Part shown: positions 381 through 17,385 of the stretch, in pieces
How positions within the stretch are numbered: position 1 is the first letter of the stretch
Layout: every line of letters starts with the position of its first letter
NCBI GenBank assembly: GCA_029953615.1
Contig: CP124529.1
Location: 2,322,998 to 2,386,997 of the forward strand
Direction: 5' to 3'
Source: Pseudomonas putida
Lineage (GTDB): Bacteria > Pseudomonadota > Gammaproteobacteria > Pseudomonadales > Pseudomonadaceae
DNA: 64,000 nucleotides
Translations under genes and position numbers: made by a program
The notes under the pieces: generated by a model
Database searches by the model: none
The model's input: only the letters and a program-made list of their open reading frames with translations
What the model was told of the DNA's origin: nothing

Positions 381-1751
381 TTACTTGCCGATGCAGAAGC
401 TGGAGAAGATCCTGCCCAACAGGTCGTCCGAGCTGAATGCCCCGGTAATCTCCCCCAAGGCCTGCTGCGCTTGGCGCAGGTCTTCCGCCAACAGCTCACC
501 TGCGCCAGCCTGGGTCAGTTGTGCACGGCCGTGTTCCAGGTGCTCGCTGGCTTGGCGCAGGGCCTCCAGGTGGCGCCGGCGGGCGCTGAAACCACTCTCG
601 GCAGTCTGTTCATAACCCATGCAGGCCTTCAGGTGGTCGCGCAGCAACTGCAGCCCTGCGTCATCCCCTTTGGCGCTGAGGGTGATCGTTACATGGCCGT
701 CATCGCACTGTTCGAGCGCGACCCGCTCACCACTCAGGTCGGCCTTGTTGCGAATCAGCGTGACCTTGGCCGGATCAGGCCGCTGGTAGAGAAACTCTGG
801 CCACAGGGCGAACGGGTCGCTGGCCTCGGGCGCGGTGGAGTCCACCACCAGCAACACCCGGTCAGCCTCGCCAATGGCCTTCAGTGCGCGTTCCACGCCG
901 ATCTTTTCCACGTGGTCATCGGTGTCGCGCAAACCGGCGGTATCGACCACATGCAGCGGCATGCCGTCGATGTGGATATGTTCGCGCAGGATGTCCCGCG
1001 TGGTGCCGGCGATATCGGTGACGATCGCCGCTTCACGCCCGGCCAGCTGGTTCAACAGGCTCGACTTGCCGGCATTCGGCCGACCGGCGATGACCACGGT
1101 CATGCCGTCACGCAGCAAGGCGCCCTGCCCGGCTTCACGCTGAACGGTGGATAACTCGCCGCGCACCGCATCGAGCATTGCCAGCACGTGGCCATCGGCG
1201 AGGAAGTCGATCTCTTCCTCGGGGAAGTCGATCGCCGCCTCGACGTAGATACGCAGGGCGATCAACGCCTCGGTCAGGCTGTGTACACGCTTGGAGAACT
1301 CCCCCTGCAGCGAGCGCAGGGCATTGCGCGCGGCCTGGCTGGAACTGGCCTCGATCAGGTCGGCAATGGCTTCGGCCTGGGCCAGGTCGAGCTTGTCATT
1401 GAGGAACGCGCGCTCGCTGAACTCGCCCGGGCGAGCCAGCCTGCAACCCACTTGTACACAACGCTGCAGCAGCATATCCAGCACCACCGGGCCACCGTGG
1501 CCTTGCAGCTCGAGCACATCCTCGCCAGTGAACGAATTCGGGCCGGGGAAGAACAGCGCGATCCCTTCGTCCAGCACCAGCCCTTCCTCGTCGCGGAACG
1601 GGCCGTAATGGGCATGGCGCGGGGTAAGCGTACGGCCGGTGATCAGCTGGCCGGCCTTGGCAGCCAGAGGGCCGGACAACCTGACAATCCCCACACCGCC
1701 ACGGCCTTGGGCGGTGGCGATGGCGGCGATGGTTTCACGCACAGTGTTCAT
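381..1751 (-). CDS. mnmE: tRNA modification GTPase MnmE
   Basis: MnmE (456 aa) works with MnmG to add the carboxymethylaminomethyl group to the wobble uridine (position 34) of certain tRNAs. The N-terminal folate-binding domain covers about residues 1-120. A G domain is inserted in the helical domain: P-loop GRPNAGKS at 223-230, then DTAGLRDT, and NKAD near 336. The protein ends in FCIGK, which holds the conserved C-terminal catalytic cysteine. Length is normal for the family. It lies downstream of yidC on the same strand with a terminator between them. The ATG start gives the expected [13 protein letters not shown] opening. Confidence 0.98.
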
Positions 1752-1786
1752 GCTCGAAAGCCTCTACGACAAAAACGACAGATAGC

Positions 1787-1813
1787 AAAAACGCCCCACT
1801 AGGGGGCGTTTTT
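1787..1813 (-). terminator. Terminator after yidC
   Basis: The sequence AAAAACGCCCC-ACT-AGGGGGCGTTTTT is a perfect symmetrical hairpin with A and T tails, so it can act on either strand. It sits between the yidC stop and the mnmE start, which implies that mnmE has its own promoter or depends on read-through. Confidence 0.85.
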
Positions 1814-1838
1814 ATTCACAGGCTAGCGCAGTAGCCTG

Positions 1839-3521
1839 TCAAGCAGCAGCTTTTTTGCTGGCTGCTTCGATGCTACGGGTGATGTACCACTGCTGTGCGA
1901 TCGACAGGCAGTTGTTCACAACCCAGTACAGCACCAGACCCGCCGGGAACCACAGGAAGAAGAAGGTGAAGATGATCGGCATCATTTTCATCACCTTGGC
2001 CTGCATCGGATCCGGCGGCGTAGGGTTCAGGCGCTGCTGGATGAACATGGTGGCGCCCATGATGATCGGCAGGATGAAGAACGGATCCTTGATCGACAGG
2101 TCGGTAATCCACAGCATCCATGGGGCCTGGCGCATTTCCACGCTTTCCAGCAGTACCCAGTACAGGGCCAGGAACACCGGCATCTGCACCAGGATCGGCA
2201 GGCAGCCGCCCAGCGGGTTGATCTTCTCTTTCTTGTACAGCTCCATCATCGCCTGGGACATCTTCTGGCGATCGTCACCGAAGCGTTCCTTCAGTGCAGC
2301 GAGCTTCGGCGCAACGGCACGCATACGCGCCATCGAACGGTAGCTGGCAGCCGACAGAGGGAAGAACAGGCCTTTGATCAGCATGGTCAGCACGATGATC
2401 GACCAGCCCCAGTTACCCAGCAGGCTGTGGATATGTTGCAGCAGCCAGAAGATCGGTTGCGCGATGAACCACAGGAAGCCGTAGTCGACGGTCAGTTCCA
2501 GGCCTGGGGACAACTCTTTCAGCTTGGACTGGATTTTCGGGCCGGCGTACAGCATGGCACTGGTTTCGACTTTGCCGCCAGCAGGCACGCTGATGGCCGG
2601 GCCGGTGTAGCCGATGATGTAGTTGCCCTGGCTGTCCTTGCGGGTCTGAACAACGTTGTTGTCCGACTTGGCCGGAATCCAGGCGGTCACGAAGTAGTGT
2701 TGCAGCCAGGCAACCCAGCCGCCGGACACATTTTCTTTCAAACTACCTTTGTCGATGTCCTTCATCGAGACCTTTTTGTAAGGCTCGGAAGCTGTCCACA
2801 GGGCGGCGCCCAGGTAGGTAGCGGTGCCGGTGGCGGTGCTCGACGACGGATCGGAGCTGGCGTCACGCTTGAGCTGGGCAAACATGTTGCCGCTCCAGGC
2901 CTGGCCGCTCTGGTTGTCGATCAGGTAGCTAACGGTCAGGTCGTACTCACCGCGCTTGAAGCTGAAGCGCTTGATGTAGTTGACGCCGTTGTCGCTGAAC
3001 TTCAGGTCGACTACCAGTTGCTGCTGGCCATCGGCCAACTGGTAACCCTTCTTGTCGGCAGCGTACAGCGGGCGACCGGCAGGTCGGGCATCCGGACCGT
3101 TGGTGCCGGTCAGGCCGCTTTGCGCCAGGTAGACACGCTCGCCACCGTTGTCGAACAGCTGGAACGGAATGTCCGGGTGATCCTGGCGACGCGGATACTG
3201 CGGCAGGTTCAGCTGGACGATGTCACCACCGACCGGATCGATAGCCAGCTCCAGGACATCGGTCTTGACCCGGATCAGGTCCTTGCTGACCGCGACCGGC
3301 GCCAGTTCGGCTGCGCTGGTTTCGGCGTTGGCGCTTGGTACATCGGCGCTGGCGCCGGCATTACCGGCCGGTACGCCATCCGGCAAGCCCGGGGCAACAG
3401 TGCTGGAAGCAGTATTCTGAGTCGGCAGGGCAGCCTGGCCGTAGTCCTGGTTCCACTTGAGGACCATGACGTAGGACACGATTGCCAGGGCGACGATCAG
3501 GATCGTGCGTTTAATATCCAT
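1839..3521 (-). CDS. yidC: Membrane protein insertase YidC
   Basis: YidC (560 aa) inserts and folds inner-membrane proteins, alone or with SecYEG. It shows the Gram-negative layout: an N-terminal membrane anchor (about residues 5-20, TILIVALAIVSYVMV), a large periplasmic beta-sandwich domain (about 60-340) preceded by an Ala/Pro/Ser-rich linker, then the conserved five-helix core. The core includes the cytoplasmic hairpin with ALKERFGDDRQKMSQAMMEL and the segment GGCLPILVQMPVFLALYWVL. The C-terminus is short and basic. It follows yidD with 2 bases between them. Confidence 0.98.
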   Translation of the reverse strand: MDIKRTILIVALAIVSYVMVLKWNQDYGQAALPTQNTASSTVAPGLPDGVPAGNAGASADVPSANAETSAAELAPVAVSKDLIRVKTDVLELAIDPVGGDIVQLNLPQYPRRQDHPDIPFQLFDNGGERVYLAQSGLTGTNGPDARPAGRPLYAADKKGYQLADGQQQLVVDLKFSDNGVNYIKRFSFKRGEYDLTVSYLIDNQSGQAWSGNMFAQLKRDASSDPSSSTATGTATYLGAALWTASEPYKKVSMKDIDKGSLKENVSGGWVAWLQHYFVTAWIPAKSDNNVVQTRKDSQGNYIIGYTGPAISVPAGGKVETSAMLYAGPKIQSKLKELSPGLELTVDYGFLWFIAQPIFWLLQHIHSLLGNWGWSIIVLTMLIKGLFFPLSAASYRSMARMRAVAPKLAALKERFGDDRQKMSQAMMELYKKEKINPLGGCLPILVQMPVFLALYWVLLESVEMRQAPWMLWITDLSIKDPFFILPIIMGATMFIQQRLNPTPPDPMQAKVMKMMPIIFTFFFLWFPAGLVLYWVVNNCLSIAQQWYITRSIEAASKKAAA

Positions 3522-3523
3522 GA

Positions 3524-3769
3524 TTACTCGGCTATCGAAGAAGTTCGGGAGGAAGGAGCGGGAGGAACGGGATCGAAACCGCCGTCATTCCACGGATGAC
3601 AACGCCCCAGGCGACGAACGGCTAGCCACCCACCACGCCAGAGGCCGTGGTTTTCAATGGCTTCATAAGCGTAACAGGAGCAACTGGGGAAGAAACGACA
3701 GTGGTTGGCCATCAGAGGACTAATGGCATAACGGTAAAACTGGATCGGAACGAGCGCCAGTTTACGCAT
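3524..3769 (-). CDS. yidD: Membrane protein insertion efficiency factor YidD
   Basis: A short basic protein of 81 aa with the YidD signature: [20 protein letters not shown], then [10 protein letters not shown], then [18 protein letters not shown]. The family is thought to assist YidC-dependent insertion at the membrane. It overlaps the 3' end of rnpA by 8 bases and precedes yidC, the universal order in gammaproteobacteria. Confidence 0.95.
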
Positions 3770-11748: not shown

Positions 11749-11986
11749 TTTGCGGTCCTCTGCATGTTGACGCCTGGCGGGAGCTGACTGGCTGCCAGGT
11801 TCGGTTAACTGATCAGACCACAATCATTCCCGCTTAATGTCAGGACAGAGGTAAAGGTCCGGTAAAGGTCTGAGAGGCGCGCTGGATGGCCCCGGCTTCG
11901 CCGGTGTTCGCGGGTGAACCCGCTCCCACAGGATGTGTGTTGCCCTCGGCGATACGCGGACCTTGTAGACCGCGTTCAGCGAACGA
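11749..11986. other. Intergenic stretch with single REP
   Basis: No gene is seen. It should contain the promoter of the RcnB-like gene (left side) and holds one REP unit at 11892-11932 downstream of fisR. Confidence 0.6.
11892..11932. repeat. REP element, GCGGG/CCCGC type
   Basis: A single unit, GGTGTTCGCGGG...CCCGCTCCCACAGG, preceded by a short CCGGCTTCGCCGG hairpin. It lies just past the 3' end of the FisR-like gene. Confidence 0.8.
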
Positions 11987-13279
11987 TTAATTCAGGCCAA
12001 GCTCTTTCAACCGGCGATATAGCGTGCGCTCACTCAGACCAAGGTGACGGGCCAGTTCGCTGCGCGAGCCCTTGAATTGTTCCAGTGCCTGCGCCAGCTC
12101 ACCCAGGTGATTGCGCCTGCCACCTGCCGTGATCGCCCCCGCCGGCCCGATATCCTCCGGCAAATGCTCCGGCCGGATCAGCCCGTCATCGGCAAACAGT
12201 CGCGCCCTTTCCAGCATGTTGCGCAGCTCGCGAATGTTGCCTGGGAACGGATGCAGCCCAAGCTGCTGCAGAGCTTCGTCGCTCAGCCTGGGCGTTGGCT
12301 TGCCTGCCATGCGCTGCAACAGGCTCTGTGCCAGCAGGGGTAAATCCTCGACCCGTTCGCGCAATGCGGGCAGGCGGATCGGGAAGCCGCTGATGCGGTA
12401 ATACAGGTCTTCGCGGAAGGTCCCATCCGCCACCATCTGCCGGAGGGGTTTGTGCGTAGCCGAAACCAGGCGAAAATCCGAATGCACCGTGCGCAGGCTA
12501 CCCACCGGGCGGAAGCTGCCGGACTCAATCAGGCGCAGCAGCTTCACCTGCATCGCCAGCGGTACTTCACCAATTTCATCGAGGAACAGGGTGCCGCCAT
12601 GCGCTGCTTCGGCGAGGCCGATCTTGCGCTGGTTGGCACCGGTGAACGCGCCCTTCTCGTAGCCGAACAACTCGCTCTCGAACAACGACTCGGTCAGGCC
12701 GGTACAGTCGACTACCACCAATGGGCCGTTGGCCCTGGGGCTGCCCATGTGCACCGCGCGAGCGAACAGTTCCTTGCCGGTACCCGACTCACCCTGCAGC
12801 AGCACCGGGATCTGCGCCGGCGCGGCACGCTGCAGGCTGGCCAGAGCCGCTTTAAACGCTGGCGCTCGCCCGACCAGCCCGTGTTCCTGGGGCTGCGCCG
12901 ACGCCAGGGTGATGCTGGTCAGGCGTTCGACAAAGGCCACCACCCTGCCCTGTTCATCCAGGATCGGCCGCAACTCGACATCCACATGCTCGGGGCCGCG
13001 TGGCGTGTGATGAATGTGCAACACCCGCTCTGGCACCTTGCTGTGCCACGCCTTGCGCATCGGGCAATGCTCGCCGGCCTGGTCGCAAGGCACGGCATAG
13101 TGGTGCGAGACCTTGTGGCATTTTTCGCCCAGCGGCGCCTGCTCATGCCGGCCGAACTGGCGGCGATAGGCAGCATTGGCGGCCAGGATGTTGTACTCGG
13201 TATCCAGCACGATGGTTGGCAGGGCATCGTGCTCAAGATAGGAAACCAGGGCTAGGATGAGGGGATGGGCTTCAGGCAT
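11987..13279 (-). CDS. fisR: FisR-like sigma-54-dependent regulator of sulfide/persulfide oxidation
   Basis: This 430-aa protein has an N-terminal PAS-like sensory region (about 10-120), a sigma-54-interacting AAA+ domain (Walker A GESGTGKE at 163-170, sigma-54 contact loop GAFTGA at 210-215, Walker B LFLDEIGE at 231-238), and a C-terminal Fis-type helix-turn-helix ([20 protein letters not shown]). The sensory domain carries three cysteines, C54, C65 and C72. Their positions match those reported for FisR of Cupriavidus, which senses persulfides and activates pdo-sqr. The open frame extends to 13525 but would cross the pdo promoter; ATG at 13279 gives [15 protein letters not shown]. It is divergent from pdo, exactly the known FisR arrangement. 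I infer the ligand from context and cysteines. Confidence 0.9.
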
Positions 13280-13317
13280 GACGGCACCGACTGGATGAGC
13301 GACGGAGAGTAGCAAGG

Positions 13318-13355
13318 ACTGCCAAACACTGCCATTGGCTGACAGTCGACTGCCA
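13318..13355. promoter_or_regulatory. Candidate activator-binding site for FisR
   Basis: ACTGCCA occurs at 13318-13324, 13328-13334 and 13349-13355. The middle copy forms an imperfect palindrome with TGACAGT (13328-13346; ACTGCCA, 5 bases, TGACAGT). The cluster lies about 100-135 bases upstream of the -24 element, a typical distance for a sigma-54 enhancer site. Assignment to FisR is inference. Confidence 0.5.
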
Positions 13356-13451
13356 TCTGCGCTGCCACGGTCATCGGCAGTTGCCAGCAAAGGACCGGTT
13401 TCATTGGCCCAAGCGCAGGAAAATGCCTGGCATGCATCTTGATAAACCTCC

Positions 13452-13466
13452 TGGCACTGCCTTCGC
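13452..13466 (+). promoter_or_regulatory. Sigma-54 (RpoN) -24/-12 promoter of pdo
   Basis: TGGCACTGCCTTCGC matches the -24/-12 consensus (GG and GC separated by exactly 10 bases). Transcription should start near 13478, about 24 bases before the pdo ATG. Confidence 0.8.
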
Positions 13467-13501
13467 CTGTACAAGGCTGGGCGGATAAATTGGAGAACGC
13501 G

Positions 13502-14386
13502 ATGATCATCGGCAACAACCTGCACGTGGACGCTTTTTACGACAAGGCGACCTCGACCATCAGCTACCTAGTCATGGACGGCGTAACGCGCAAGTGTGCG
13601 TTGATTGACAGTGTCCTCGACTATGACCCCAAGTCGGGGCGCACCTGCACTGCTTCTGCGGACCAGTTGATTGCCCGGGTGAAGGAGCTGCGAGCTGAGG
13701 TGCAGTGGGTGCTGGAAACCCATGTGCATGCCGACCACCTTTCGGCGGCGGCCTATTTGAAGGAAAAGCTCGGCGGCCACACCGCCATCGGCGCGCACAT
13801 CACCCAGGTACAGAAAGTATTCGGTGCCTTGTTCAATGCCGAGCCTGGCTTCGCCCGCGATGGCAGCCAGTTCGATGTGCTGTTCGAAGATGAGGAAGGT
13901 TTCCGCATCGGCAACCTGCATGCCCGCGCGCTGCATACCCCGGGGCACACACCTGCGTGCATGAGCTTCATGATCGAGGACGCAGGCGAGACCGCGGTGT
14001 TCGTCGGTGACACCTTGTTCATGCCCGACTATGGTACCGCCCGCTGCGATTTCCCGGGGGCCGATGCCCGCACCCTGTACCGCTCGATCCGTCGCCTGCT
14101 GGCCTTTCCCGACCAGACCCGGCTGTTCATGTGCCATGACTACCTTCCAGGTGGCCGCGACATGCAGTACGTCACCACCGTGGCCGAGCAGCGCGCCAGC
14201 AATATTCATATCCACCAGGGCATCGACGAGGACAGCTTCGTCGCCATGCGTGAAGCCCGCGACAAGACGCTCGACATGCCCGTGCTGATCCTGCCATCGG
14301 TGCAGGTGAACATGCGCAGCGGCCAGTTCCCCGCGCCGGAAGAAAACGGTGTGAGCTACCTGAAGATCCCGCTGAACAAGCTGTAA
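13502..14386 (+). CDS. pdo: Persulfide dioxygenase (ETHE1-like metallo-beta-lactamase fold)
   Basis: This 294-aa protein is expected to oxidise glutathione persulfide to sulfite and glutathione with an iron centre. Metal-ligand motifs of the fold are present: HVHADH (about residues 77-82), HTPGHTPACMSF, VGDTLFMPDYG and the later MCHDY. The length resembles the bacterial PDO type that lacks a fused rhodanese domain. The ATG at 13502 follows GGAGAACGCG. It is the first gene of the pdo-sqr-tauE run and has its own sigma-54 promoter. Another metallo-hydrolase function is possible but unlikely given the neighbours. Confidence 0.92.
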   Translation: MIIGNNLHVDAFYDKATSTISYLVMDGVTRKCALIDSVLDYDPKSGRTCTASADQLIARVKELRAEVQWVLETHVHADHLSAAAYLKEKLGGHTAIGAHITQVQKVFGALFNAEPGFARDGSQFDVLFEDEEGFRIGNLHARALHTPGHTPACMSFMIEDAGETAVFVGDTLFMPDYGTARCDFPGADARTLYRSIRRLLAFPDQTRLFMCHDYLPGGRDMQYVTTVAEQRASNIHIHQGIDEDSFVAMREARDKTLDMPVLILPSVQVNMRSGQFPAPEENGVSYLKIPLNKL

Positions 14387-14425
14387 CCGCCCTGCTCCAT
14401 AACCAGATTTCCAGGATTTACCGCC

Positions 14426-15694
14426 ATGCCTGCCTTGTTGTCCCCTACCAATAACGATCACCACAAAGTGGTCATCGTCGGTGCCGGTGCCGCCGGTATC
14501 GCCACTGCTTCCAGCCTGATCAGCCGTGACCCGTCGCTGGACGTGACCCTGATCGACCCCGCCGAGGTGCATTACTACCAGCCCGGCTGGACCATGGTCG
14601 GTGCCGGTGTGTTCAAGGCGCAGAGCACTGCCCGCACCATGGCCTCGACCATCCCGCGCGGTGTGCGCTGGATCAAGGCACGTGTGCAGGGGTTCGACCC
14701 GCTGGGCCAGCTGGTCCTCCTCGAAGGCGGCCACGCCATCAGTTATGAACAGTTGGTGGTGTGCCCCGGCCTCAAGCTGGATTGGGCGGCCATCGATGGG
14801 CTCAGCGAGACCCTGGGCCACAACGGCGTCACCTCCAATTACCGCTACGATCTGGCGCCCTACACCTGGGAGCTGGTGCAGAAGCTCAGGCAAGGCCGCG
14901 CCCTGTTCTGCCAGCCGCCGATGCCGATCAAGTGCGCGGGCGCGCCGCAAAAGGCGCTTTACCTGTCATGTGACCACTGGCTGCGCAATGGTCATCTGGG
15001 GGCGGTGAAGGCCAGCTTCTTCAACGCCGGTGCGGTATTGTTCGGGGTGGCGGATTACGTGCCCGCGCTGATGAAGTACATCGACAAGTACGGCGTGGAC
15101 CTGAATTTTTCCCACCGCCTGGTCGCCGTGGACGGCCCGAACAAGCGCGCCACCTTCCTGCGCACCTTGGCCGATGGCAGCAGCGAAACCCTTATCGAGG
15201 CCTTCGACATGCTGCACGTGGTACCGCCGCAGGTGGCACCGGACTTCATTCGTGAAAGCCCGTTGGCCGACAACGCCGGCTGGGTCGATGTTGACCCGCA
15301 CACCCTGCGTCATCGCCACTTCACCAATGTGCATGCCCTGGGGGACGTGGCCAATACCAGCAATGCCAAGACTGCCGCGGCTGCCCGCAAGCAGGCTCCG
15401 GTCGTGGCCAACAATGTGCTGGTGGCCCTTGGCAGGCTACCTGCCTTGGCCCGGTACGATGGTTATGGCTCGTGCCCGCTCACCGTCGAGCGCGGCAAGA
15501 TCGTGCTGGCTGAGTTCACTTATGGCGGCAAGCTGGCACCGAGTTTCCCAAACTGGTTACTGGATGGCCGCCGACCTACACGCCTGGCGTGGTTGCTCAA
15601 GGCACGGGTGCTGCCGCCCTTGTACTGGAAAGGCATGCTCAAGGGCCGGGAGTGGCTGGCACGCCCGCAGTTGGTAGCCGAGGGTGGGCAGTGA
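14426..15694 (+). CDS. sqr: Sulfide:quinone oxidoreductase
   Basis: SQR (422 aa) is a membrane-associated FAD enzyme that oxidises sulfide and passes electrons to quinone, forming persulfide for PDO. The N-terminal dinucleotide-binding motif is VVIVGAGAAGIATASSLI (about residues 14-31), followed by YYQPGWTMVGAG. Candidate redox cysteines occur in VVCPGLKLDW and in PMPIKCAGAPQKALYLSC. A second FAD contact is HALGDVANTSNAKTAAAARKQ. It lies 40 bases after pdo. The C-terminus looks amphipathic, as expected for membrane association. Confidence 0.94.
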   Translation: MPALLSPTNNDHHKVVIVGAGAAGIATASSLISRDPSLDVTLIDPAEVHYYQPGWTMVGAGVFKAQSTARTMASTIPRGVRWIKARVQGFDPLGQLVLLEGGHAISYEQLVVCPGLKLDWAAIDGLSETLGHNGVTSNYRYDLAPYTWELVQKLRQGRALFCQPPMPIKCAGAPQKALYLSCDHWLRNGHLGAVKASFFNAGAVLFGVADYVPALMKYIDKYGVDLNFSHRLVAVDGPNKRATFLRTLADGSSETLIEAFDMLHVVPPQVAPDFIRESPLADNAGWVDVDPHTLRHRHFTNVHALGDVANTSNAKTAAAARKQAPVVANNVLVALGRLPALARYDGYGSCPLTVERGKIVLAEFTYGGKLAPSFPNWLLDGRRPTRLAWLLKARVLPPLYWKGMLKGREWLARPQLVAEGGQ

Positions 15695-16509
15695 TCGAAC
15701 ATCAACTACTGGGAGCGGGCCTGGGCGCGATCATCGGTGCCGTGCTGGCCTTGACCGGTGCCGGCGGTGGCATTCTCGCAGTGCCTTTACTGGTGTTCGG
15801 CCTGGGTTTGTCGATGGTCGAGGCTGCACCGGTCGGCCTGCTGGCCGTAGGCATGGCGGCGGCAGTGGGTGCTGTGCTGGGGTTGCGTCAGGGCCTGGTG
15901 CGCTACCGGGCGGCGTTGTTCATCGCGGTGATCGGTGTGGTAGCGGCCCCGTTCGGGCTGATGCTGGCCCACCGCTTGCCTGACACGCCACTGCAGTTGG
16001 TGTTCGCCGGCGTGTTGGTGTACGCCTGCCTGCGCATCTGGTGCAAGGCGGCCAAGGAACTGCGCGGCGAAGCCAATGACGCCCACCGCTATATCGAACC
16101 CTGCGTGCTGAACCCGTTGCAGGGCCGTTTGCGCTGGACCCTGCCCTGCGCCCGCGCCCTGGCGTTTACCGGCGCACTGTCCGGGCTGCTGTCCGGCCTG
16201 CTCGGCGTAGGCGGTGGCTTTGTCATCATCCCGGCCCTTAACCGCTATACCAACTTGCGCATGGCCAGCATCGTCTCCACCTCGCTGGCGGTGATTGCAT
16301 TGGTGTCTACCGGCAGTGTGGTCAGCGCCAGCCTGGCAGGGGTGATGCACTGGCAGGTTGGCGCCCCGTTCGCTGGCGGCGCGGTGCTCGGCCTGCTGCT
16401 GGCGCGGCCCTTGGCCGCCAGGCTGGCCGGGCCGCGCTTGCAGCAGATGTTTGCGGTGGCCGGTTGGGCTGCGGCCCTGTTGCTGGCCGGCAAGGCGTTA
16501 CTCGGCTAG
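15691..16509 (+). CDS. TauE/SafE family sulfite (anion) exporter
   Basis: This 272-aa multi-helix membrane protein has two repeats beginning with the glycine-rich TGAGGGILAVPLL and GVGGGFVIIPAL, the internal duplication typical of TauE/SafE. The start is a GTG that overlaps the sqr stop (GTGA), so the two are translationally coupled; the longer open frame upstream lies inside sqr. In this operon the likely substrate is sulfite or another sulfur oxyanion formed by PDO. Its last 12 bases overlap the 3' end of the convergent LysR gene. Confidence 0.9.
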   Translation: MIEHQLLGAGLGAIIGAVLALTGAGGGILAVPLLVFGLGLSMVEAAPVGLLAVGMAAAVGAVLGLRQGLVRYRAALFIAVIGVVAAPFGLMLAHRLPDTPLQLVFAGVLVYACLRIWCKAAKELRGEANDAHRYIEPCVLNPLQGRLRWTLPCARALAFTGALSGLLSGLLGVGGGFVIIPALNRYTNLRMASIVSTSLAVIALVSTGSVVSASLAGVMHWQVGAPFAGGAVLGLLLARPLAARLAGPRLQQMFAVAGWAAALLLAGKALLG

Positions 16510-17385
16510 CAACTCGCTTTGTTCTGCAGCGCACAGCGCCAGCAGGTAGTCCCACACTACTCGCAGGCGCACTGACTTGTGCAGTTCGCGGCGGGTGCAG
16601 ATCCAGTAGCTGCGCTGGATGGTTTCACCAGGCAGTACACGCACCAGTGTCGGGTCGTGGCGGGCCATGTAATTGGGCAGCACGGCGATGCCCAGCCCGG
16701 CACGAGCGGCGGTTTGTTGGGCGATTACGCTGGTGCTGCGAAACACTACGTTAGGTGCCCGGCAGAAGCTGTTGAGAAACAGCAGTTCCTGGCTGAACAG
16801 CAAATCGTCCACGTAGCCGATCCAGTTATGCCGGGCCAGGTCCTCGCGGTTTCGTAGCGGGGGCGCGCGATCCAGGTAGGCCTGGCTGGCATACAAGGCC
16901 AGGCGATAGTCGGTGAGCTTGCGGGTGATCAGCAGGTCTGCGTTGGGCCGTTCCAGGTGGATGCTGATCTCCGCCTCGCGGTTGAGGATGCTGACGAAGC
17001 GCGGCACCGCCACCAGCTCCACCTCCAGGCCGGGGTAGCGGTCGAACAGCGCATTCATGCGCGGGGTGAAGAACATGATGCCGATGCCTTCGGTCACCCC
17101 CAGGCGAATCTTGCCCAGTGGCGTGATGGCCTGGGTGATTTCTTCCTGTGCCAGCAGGGCAACGTTTTCCATGGCTTCGGCGTGCTTGAGCAGAGCTTGG
17201 CCCGAGGGGGTCAGTTCATAGCCCTGGGCATGCTGCACGAACAGCGCGGTACCCAGGCTTTGTTCGATGCTCTCGATGTGCCGGGCCACGGTGCTGTGGG
17301 TGGTGTTGAGGCGCTTGGCGGCGGTAAGCAAACGGCCGCTGCGCTGCAACTCGAGGAAAAACCGCAGATCGTTCCAGTCGAACAT
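16498..17385 (-). CDS. LysR-type transcriptional regulator
   Basis: A 295-aa LysR regulator with an N-terminal winged helix (LRFFLELQRSGRLLTAAKRLNTTHSTVARHI, about residues 7-37) and a C-terminal effector domain. The start ATG has AAGGATC upstream. It is divergent from the GMC oxidoreductase gene at 17608, with a REP pair between them. It may control that gene and the following transporter, since LysR genes often regulate the divergent neighbour. The effector is unknown. Confidence 0.92.
   Translation of the reverse strand: MFDWNDLRFFLELQRSGRLLTAAKRLNTTHSTVARHIESIEQSLGTALFVQHAQGYELTPSGQALLKHAEAMENVALLAQEEITQAITPLGKIRLGVTEGIGIMFFTPRMNALFDRYPGLEVELVAVPRFVSILNREAEISIHLERPNADLLITRKLTDYRLALYASQAYLDRAPPLRNREDLARHNWIGYVDDLLFSQELLFLNSFCRAPNVVFRSTSVIAQQTAARAGLGIAVLPNYMARHDPTLVRVLPGETIQRSYWICTRRELHKSVRLRVVWDYLLALCAAEQSELLAE

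Follow-up and report, generated by a model that had tools for sequence, protein, structure and literature searches.

What switches on the oxidation of sulfide in Pseudomonas, and from which DNA sites? The question is raised by a 64-kb stretch of Pseudomonas putida DNA (contig CP124529.1; hereafter the window, whose numbering is used throughout), in which a gene for a FisR-type sigma-54 activator is divergent from genes for a persulfide dioxygenase (pdo), a sulfide:quinone oxidoreductase (sqr) and a TauE/SafE-family permease (tauE). We hold it highly probable that these genes are a Pseudomonas form of an operon already known, which oxidizes sulfide under the control of FisR, and that FisR, bound to TGNCA boxes set in a row (13318-13367), acts on a sigma-54 promoter at 13428-13443. 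The module itself is already known; the present analysis adds a corrected promoter, a grammar for the boxes and a link to cytochrome bd.

A row of TGNCA boxes in the fisR-pdo gap

The proposed operator consists of five TGNCA boxes that start at 13320, 13330, 13340, 13351 and 13363, in steps of 10, 10, 11 and 12 bp. Boxes 2 and 3 make up a palindrome, ACTGCCA-N5-TGACAGT (13328-13346), that an earlier sequence-only reading of the window had singled out as the regulatory site. It is present there with 0 mismatches and is the only exact copy in the window, where a search at up to three mismatches gave 8 matches against 6.1 expected. A looser form, ACTGNCA-N5-TGNCAGT, matches the single-contig genome (5.76 Mb) at one position.

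The same reading had proposed conservation across fisR-pdo gaps as one of its checks, and here the palindrome and the boxes part company. With FisR as query, 149 Pseudomonas genomes yielded 52 full-length matches at 64-100% identity; these come from 51 genomes, among them that of the window. All 52 loci were taken (L002-L053 in our numbering), with a nearest clade and a distant Pseudomonas group defined by FisR identity, not by species names. The pdo gene is divergent from fisR in every one of them. The palindrome is exact in 15 of the 52 gaps, within one mismatch in 19 and within two in 26; all 15 exact copies lie in the nearest clade, in 15 of its 16 gaps. A chain of at least three TGNCA boxes with steps of 9-13 bp is found in 48 of the 52, against 0.1 expected from dinucleotide shuffles, and the gaps carry 7.3 boxes each against 1.8 after shuffling. 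Among the 16 nearest gaps, boxes 1-4 show little or no variation, and the boxes often read CTGCCA. The conserved element is thus the row of boxes around the palindrome, not the palindrome.

Only the middle base distinguishes the two strands of TGNCA, which makes 'direct' and 'inverted' copies nearly equivalent; the only strong direction of the boxes comes from a leading AC. The distance between any two boxes peaks sharply: across the 52 gaps, a pair stands 10 bp apart in 36, 11 bp apart in 26 and 12 bp apart in 23. Only about 40 bp separate the row from the fisR start codon, so the boxes may also set fisR expression. Among the literature matches listed for ACTGCCA together with sulfide there was no related title. 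No described FisR binding site appeared in the titles and abstract beginnings compared, a set that leaves out the founding FisR study, which may report one.

A likely sigma-54 promoter with a non-canonical -12 element

Every GG-led 16-mer in the fisR-pdo gaps was scored on a consensus score of our own. In the window, TGGCATGCATCTTGAT (13428-13443, forward strand, GG-N10-GA) ranks first with 11, against 10 for TGGCACTGCCTTCGCC (13452-13466, forward strand), the GG-N10-GC that had been read as the promoter. That margin alone is slight, and the promoter was assigned on conservation. In the alignment of the 16 nearest gaps, all 16 retain TGGCA[TC]G-N-ATCTTGAT, and 4 (L002, L003, L004, L007) retain the GG-N10-GC, which is deleted in L010. 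The latter motif is literally there, yet it is probably not the promoter, and its choice was very probably off by 24 bp. The most likely sigma-54 promoter is TGGCATGCATCTTGAT, with a predicted transcription start at about 13454.

Counterparts of the form TGGC[ACT]-N6-TTG[AC] occur in all 52 Pseudomonas gaps, more than 60 bp downstream of the first box; shuffled gaps would yield them in 0.8 of 52. The -24 GG, at 13429-13430 in the window, is likewise present in 52 of 52. Beyond Pseudomonas, TGGCA-N6-TTG is found in 22 of 22 Burkholderiaceae gaps (17 loci from a search of that family plus five named loci).

The -12 element is where this assignment is most exposed. The textbook GC is mostly absent: the window has GA at 13441-13442, the Pseudomonas counterparts end in TTGA in 36 of 52 and in TTGC in 16, and the Burkholderiaceae sites have A (16), T (5) or G (1) at the last position, hence GA, GT or GG and never GC. 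These observations count against the site and are the main weakness of the promoter call. By inference from its conservation, 13428-13443 would nevertheless work like a sigma-54 promoter, with a non-canonical -12.

A proper GC at -12 is what the simpler layout, one FisR palindrome at 13328-13346 serving a promoter at 13452-13466, has to offer, together with the literal presence of both motifs and an exact palindrome in nearly all of the nearest gaps. Since that promoter is lost from most of the same gaps, and the palindrome is exact in 15 of 52 whereas box rows stand in 48, we give this layout a very slim chance.

In most of the gaps of L038-L049, an AT-rich stretch around AATCAA was seen by eye between the boxes and the promoter and is possibly a DNA-bending site. 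An IHF site in this interval, judged by eye only, is not proposed.

The boxes accompany FisR across the phylum

Full-length relatives of FisR, at about 40-65% identity, occur in a minority of 398 genomes sampled across the phylum. Among 29 such loci (L054-L082), pdo is adjacent in the retrieved stretch only in L054. In the Burkholderiaceae, the family of L054, 17 of 120 genomes encode a full-length FisR (61-66%), and pdo is adjacent in all 17. The 22 Burkholderiaceae gaps each contain 4-8 TGNCA boxes, and a pair of boxes stands 9 bp apart in 20, 11 bp apart in 17 and 12 bp apart in 14. Named close relatives in this family include Burkholderia latens, B. arboris and B. seminalis. Cupriavidus metallidurans CH34, from the genus in which FisR was defined, has the boxes and the promoter as well as pdo and sqr; a tauE-like gene stands on the far side of fisR. 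In FisR loci without an adjacent pdo, a TGNCA pair 9 bp apart is found in 29 of 46, against 0.3 expected.

As a control we took 95 loci of other sigma-54 activators, of which 89 were usable, and treated them like the FisR loci (119 usable of 123). A 9- or 10-bp TGNCA pair lies near the gene start in 79 of the 119 FisR loci and in 1 of the 89 others. This comparison bears on whether the boxes are instead extra -24-like sites that hold sigma-54 polymerase, or the sites of another regulator. TGGCA is both the -24 core of sigma-54 promoters and one strand of the box, and TGGCAG lies inside some promoters. The boxes mostly stand 9-12 bp apart, too tight for each to be a -24/-12 unit; 88 of 89 loci of other sigma-54 activators are without the pair; and the boxes accompany FisR to different target genes. 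An origin of this kind is very unlikely, and we continue to regard the boxes as FisR sites, the basic site of the family probably being two TGNCA 9-10 bp apart, multiplied to five in the window.

A scan of the window's whole genome with the three-box pattern gave a single match, at the fisR-pdo gap, and no further FisR targets. The pattern is present in 47 of the 50 other FisR-encoding Pseudomonas genomes and in 18 of 50 genomes without FisR (drawn from 98). Five matches away from fisR in other genomes (L225-L229) were dropped, as no TGGCA-N6-TTG[AC] follows on the same strand within 300 bp downstream.

Several observations weigh against the boxes as FisR operators. They resemble the TGGCA core; 4 of the 52 Pseudomonas gaps have no three-box chain (L033, L045, L051, L053); and 40 of the 119 FisR loci have no 9- or 10-bp pair in the crude control window. 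A backward control pattern also gives one match in the window's genome, and the 18 FisR-free genomes hold their three-box match somewhere. The counts are not independent: there are many related loci, and a few records appear twice.

In a Moraxellaceae genus that we took for Acinetobacter, the loci found with a PDO query have an upstream 400 bp that looks coding and has no box row; a FisR query of that genus gave 0 matches in 149 genomes, a result without weight, as the search had no positive control. A readable operator would allow FisR targets to be predicted in unannotated genomes and opens the boxes to direct mutational tests.

Proposed FisR sites next to cytochrome bd genes

In several genomes with FisR, a second row of boxes lies just past the 3' end of fisR. 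Of the 17 Pseudomonas loci that are most distant (L037-L053), all but L053, which ends near a contig end, were examined on this side. Ten of the 16 have a TGNCA cluster, then TGGCATG-N4-GTGC, then cydP, a small-subunit gene (L218, positions 600-3618; L219-L224, L232, L256 and L257). In eight of these, cydA and cydB follow cydP within the retrieved 5 kb, the exceptions being L220 and L257. One step is often 8 bp, and for that reason no more than 3 of the 10 have a strict three-box chain. The other six loci (L230, L231, L233, L234, L235, L258) lack cydP and show no row of boxes over the first 330-350 bp; L231 keeps two boxes. NCBIfam and Pfam name CydP, CydA and CydB in L218, and CydP and CydA in L085 and L148.

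FisR relatives are also found beside cydA in other lineages. Nine are divergent from it, whether or not a cydP was detected (L083-L086, L147-L149, L264, L265); L264 is from Pseudoalteromonas xiamenensis, which has an annotated CydP, and L265 from P. piscicida. In L079 and L081, cydA comes one gene later. Thirteen FisR-like genes face molybdopterin oxidoreductase-like genes (L058, L061-L064, L067-L070, L073, L075, L076, L146; checked by Pfam in L061 only), and 12 of the 13 have a 9-bp TGNCA pair upstream. The FisR relative of L080 faces a flavoprotein that could be an SQR. Two cytochrome bd-type CydA relatives, matching at only 34-39%, are present in the genome of the window; the 3.9 kb taken for each contain no TGNCA pair at a distance of 9-12 bp.

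The loci with cydP, with or without cydAB, suggest that FisR couples sulfide oxidation to sulfide-resistant respiration in distant Pseudomonas. With moderate assurance, we favor a broader picture in which FisR is a widespread sulfide-sensing family whose ancestral operator, TGNCA-N4-TGNCA, travels along with it. Such regulators would also activate the sulfide-resistant cytochrome bd (cydP-cydAB) and molybdopterin sulfur reductases, and in one Pseudomonas lineage a single FisR, with an operator on each side, would drive both pdo-sqr-tauE and cydPAB. The FisR-type cluster and the sigma-54-like promoter before cydPAB make this link testable in some proteobacteria.

The papers cited here and below were compared as excerpts. 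In these, cydAB is sulfide-induced in Acinetobacter baumannii, Escherichia coli and Mycobacterium tuberculosis, with no tie to FisR in the excerpted text (PMC7315123). The titles and abstract beginnings of the papers listed gave no link of FisR or sulfide regulation with cytochrome bd.

Sulfide oxidation genes and a model for their control

The gene set named by the sequence-only reading is borne out in coordinates and domains by Pfam and structure matches. The fisR product (11987-13279, reverse strand) has a PAS domain (PF08448, PAS_4), an AAA+ sigma-54 interaction domain (PF00158) and a Fis-type helix-turn-helix (PF02954, HTH_8). Its N-terminal region has the three cysteines of the family at the positions that had been given, Cys54, Cys65 and Cys72. 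All three positions are cysteines in 119 of the 120 loci aligned, L154 being the exception; the alignment includes the window's own locus and a few duplicate records. On the forward strand, pdo (13502-14386) is preceded by a likely ribosome-binding site, GGAGA (13492-13496). It encodes a metallo-beta-lactamase fold protein (PF00753) that matches a solved member of its family (PDB 4ysk/4ysl) over its full length (residues 1-294, E 2.5e-188). The sqr product (14426-15694, forward strand) belongs to the pyridine nucleotide-disulphide oxidoreductases of Pfam, and its best solved match is the mitochondrial sulfide:quinone oxidoreductase (6mp5; residues 11-408 of 422, E 3e-89). The product of tauE (15691-16509, forward strand) carries PF01925 (E 3.4e-40). 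Its GTG start overlaps the sqr stop as GTGA (15691-15694), the coupling that had been described.

The 22 Pseudomonas loci retrieved with long flanks all have tauE, and 20 have sqr; in the other 30 of the 52, the retrieved stretch is too short to show tauE. In the two without sqr (L034, L037), tauE directly follows pdo and the retrieved stretch has no sqr match. L038 encodes an SQR with an N-terminal BLH phosphatase-like domain (PF04273; 2833-4503 of that locus), and related loci have a comparable additional stretch between pdo and sqr. In the window, a convergent LysR-type gene (16498-17385, reverse strand) overlaps the end of tauE by 12 bp (16498-16509). Downstream of fisR, a short GC-rich stretch at 11885-11935, seen by eye, resembles the repetitive extragenic palindromic (REP) elements of P. 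putida.

We infer that FisR binds the boxes, which share approximately one helical face and lie some 60-110 bp upstream of the sigma-54 promoter. Persulfide would modify cysteines of the PAS domain, whereupon FisR may assemble on the box row, looped to the promoter, and its AAA+ domain would open the sigma-54 polymerase at pdo-sqr-tauE. SQR is predicted to oxidize sulfide to persulfide and PDO to convert persulfide to sulfite; the export of sulfite or thiosulfate is the probable task of TauE. Sulfite export by TauE had been put forward as a fourth step by the earlier reading as well; the idea is not new, a sulfite/thiosulfate effluxer having been proposed for A. baumannii (PMC7315123).

The natural inducer could instead be another chalcogen or an oxidant. 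In P. putida KT2440, selenite raises the PP_0052-PP_0054 transcripts, that is pdo2, sqr and the last operon gene PP_0054, together (PMC10128140). Acinetobacter and Cupriavidus FisR are described as responding to sulfide or sulfane sulfur (PMC7315123, PMC8469610), and the enzymes of the module act on sulfide and persulfide. Another inducer is accordingly unlikely, and sulfide, acting through persulfide, would be the signal.

Comparison with known systems

Enhancers with several sites upstream of a -24/-12 promoter are familiar from NorR and NtrC. The row in the window differs from these in its odd number of boxes, five TGNCA about one helical turn apart and in mixed orientation.

The closest described loci share the gene content. 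In P. putida KT2440, PP_0051-PP_0054 (sqrR-pdo2-sqr-PP_0054) has the same kinds of genes in the same order as the window. The regulator PP_0051 is annotated as sigma-54 dependent, putative, and the regulator, pdo2 and sqr mutants share a phenotype; the excerpts describe no promoter or operator for this locus (PMC10128140). The A. baumannii FisR-PDO1-SQR-TauE operon (A1S_1707-1711) is sulfide-induced and, like the window, has a divergent FisR and a predicted sigma-54 promoter. Its excerpted description has no FisR site, and it differs from the window by an added homoserine dehydrogenase gene (PMC7315123). FisR of Cupriavidus pinatubonensis JMP134, represented here by papers that cite it, is a sigma-54 activator with three conserved cysteines that sense sulfane sulfur, and in its class and its cysteines the FisR of the window is alike.

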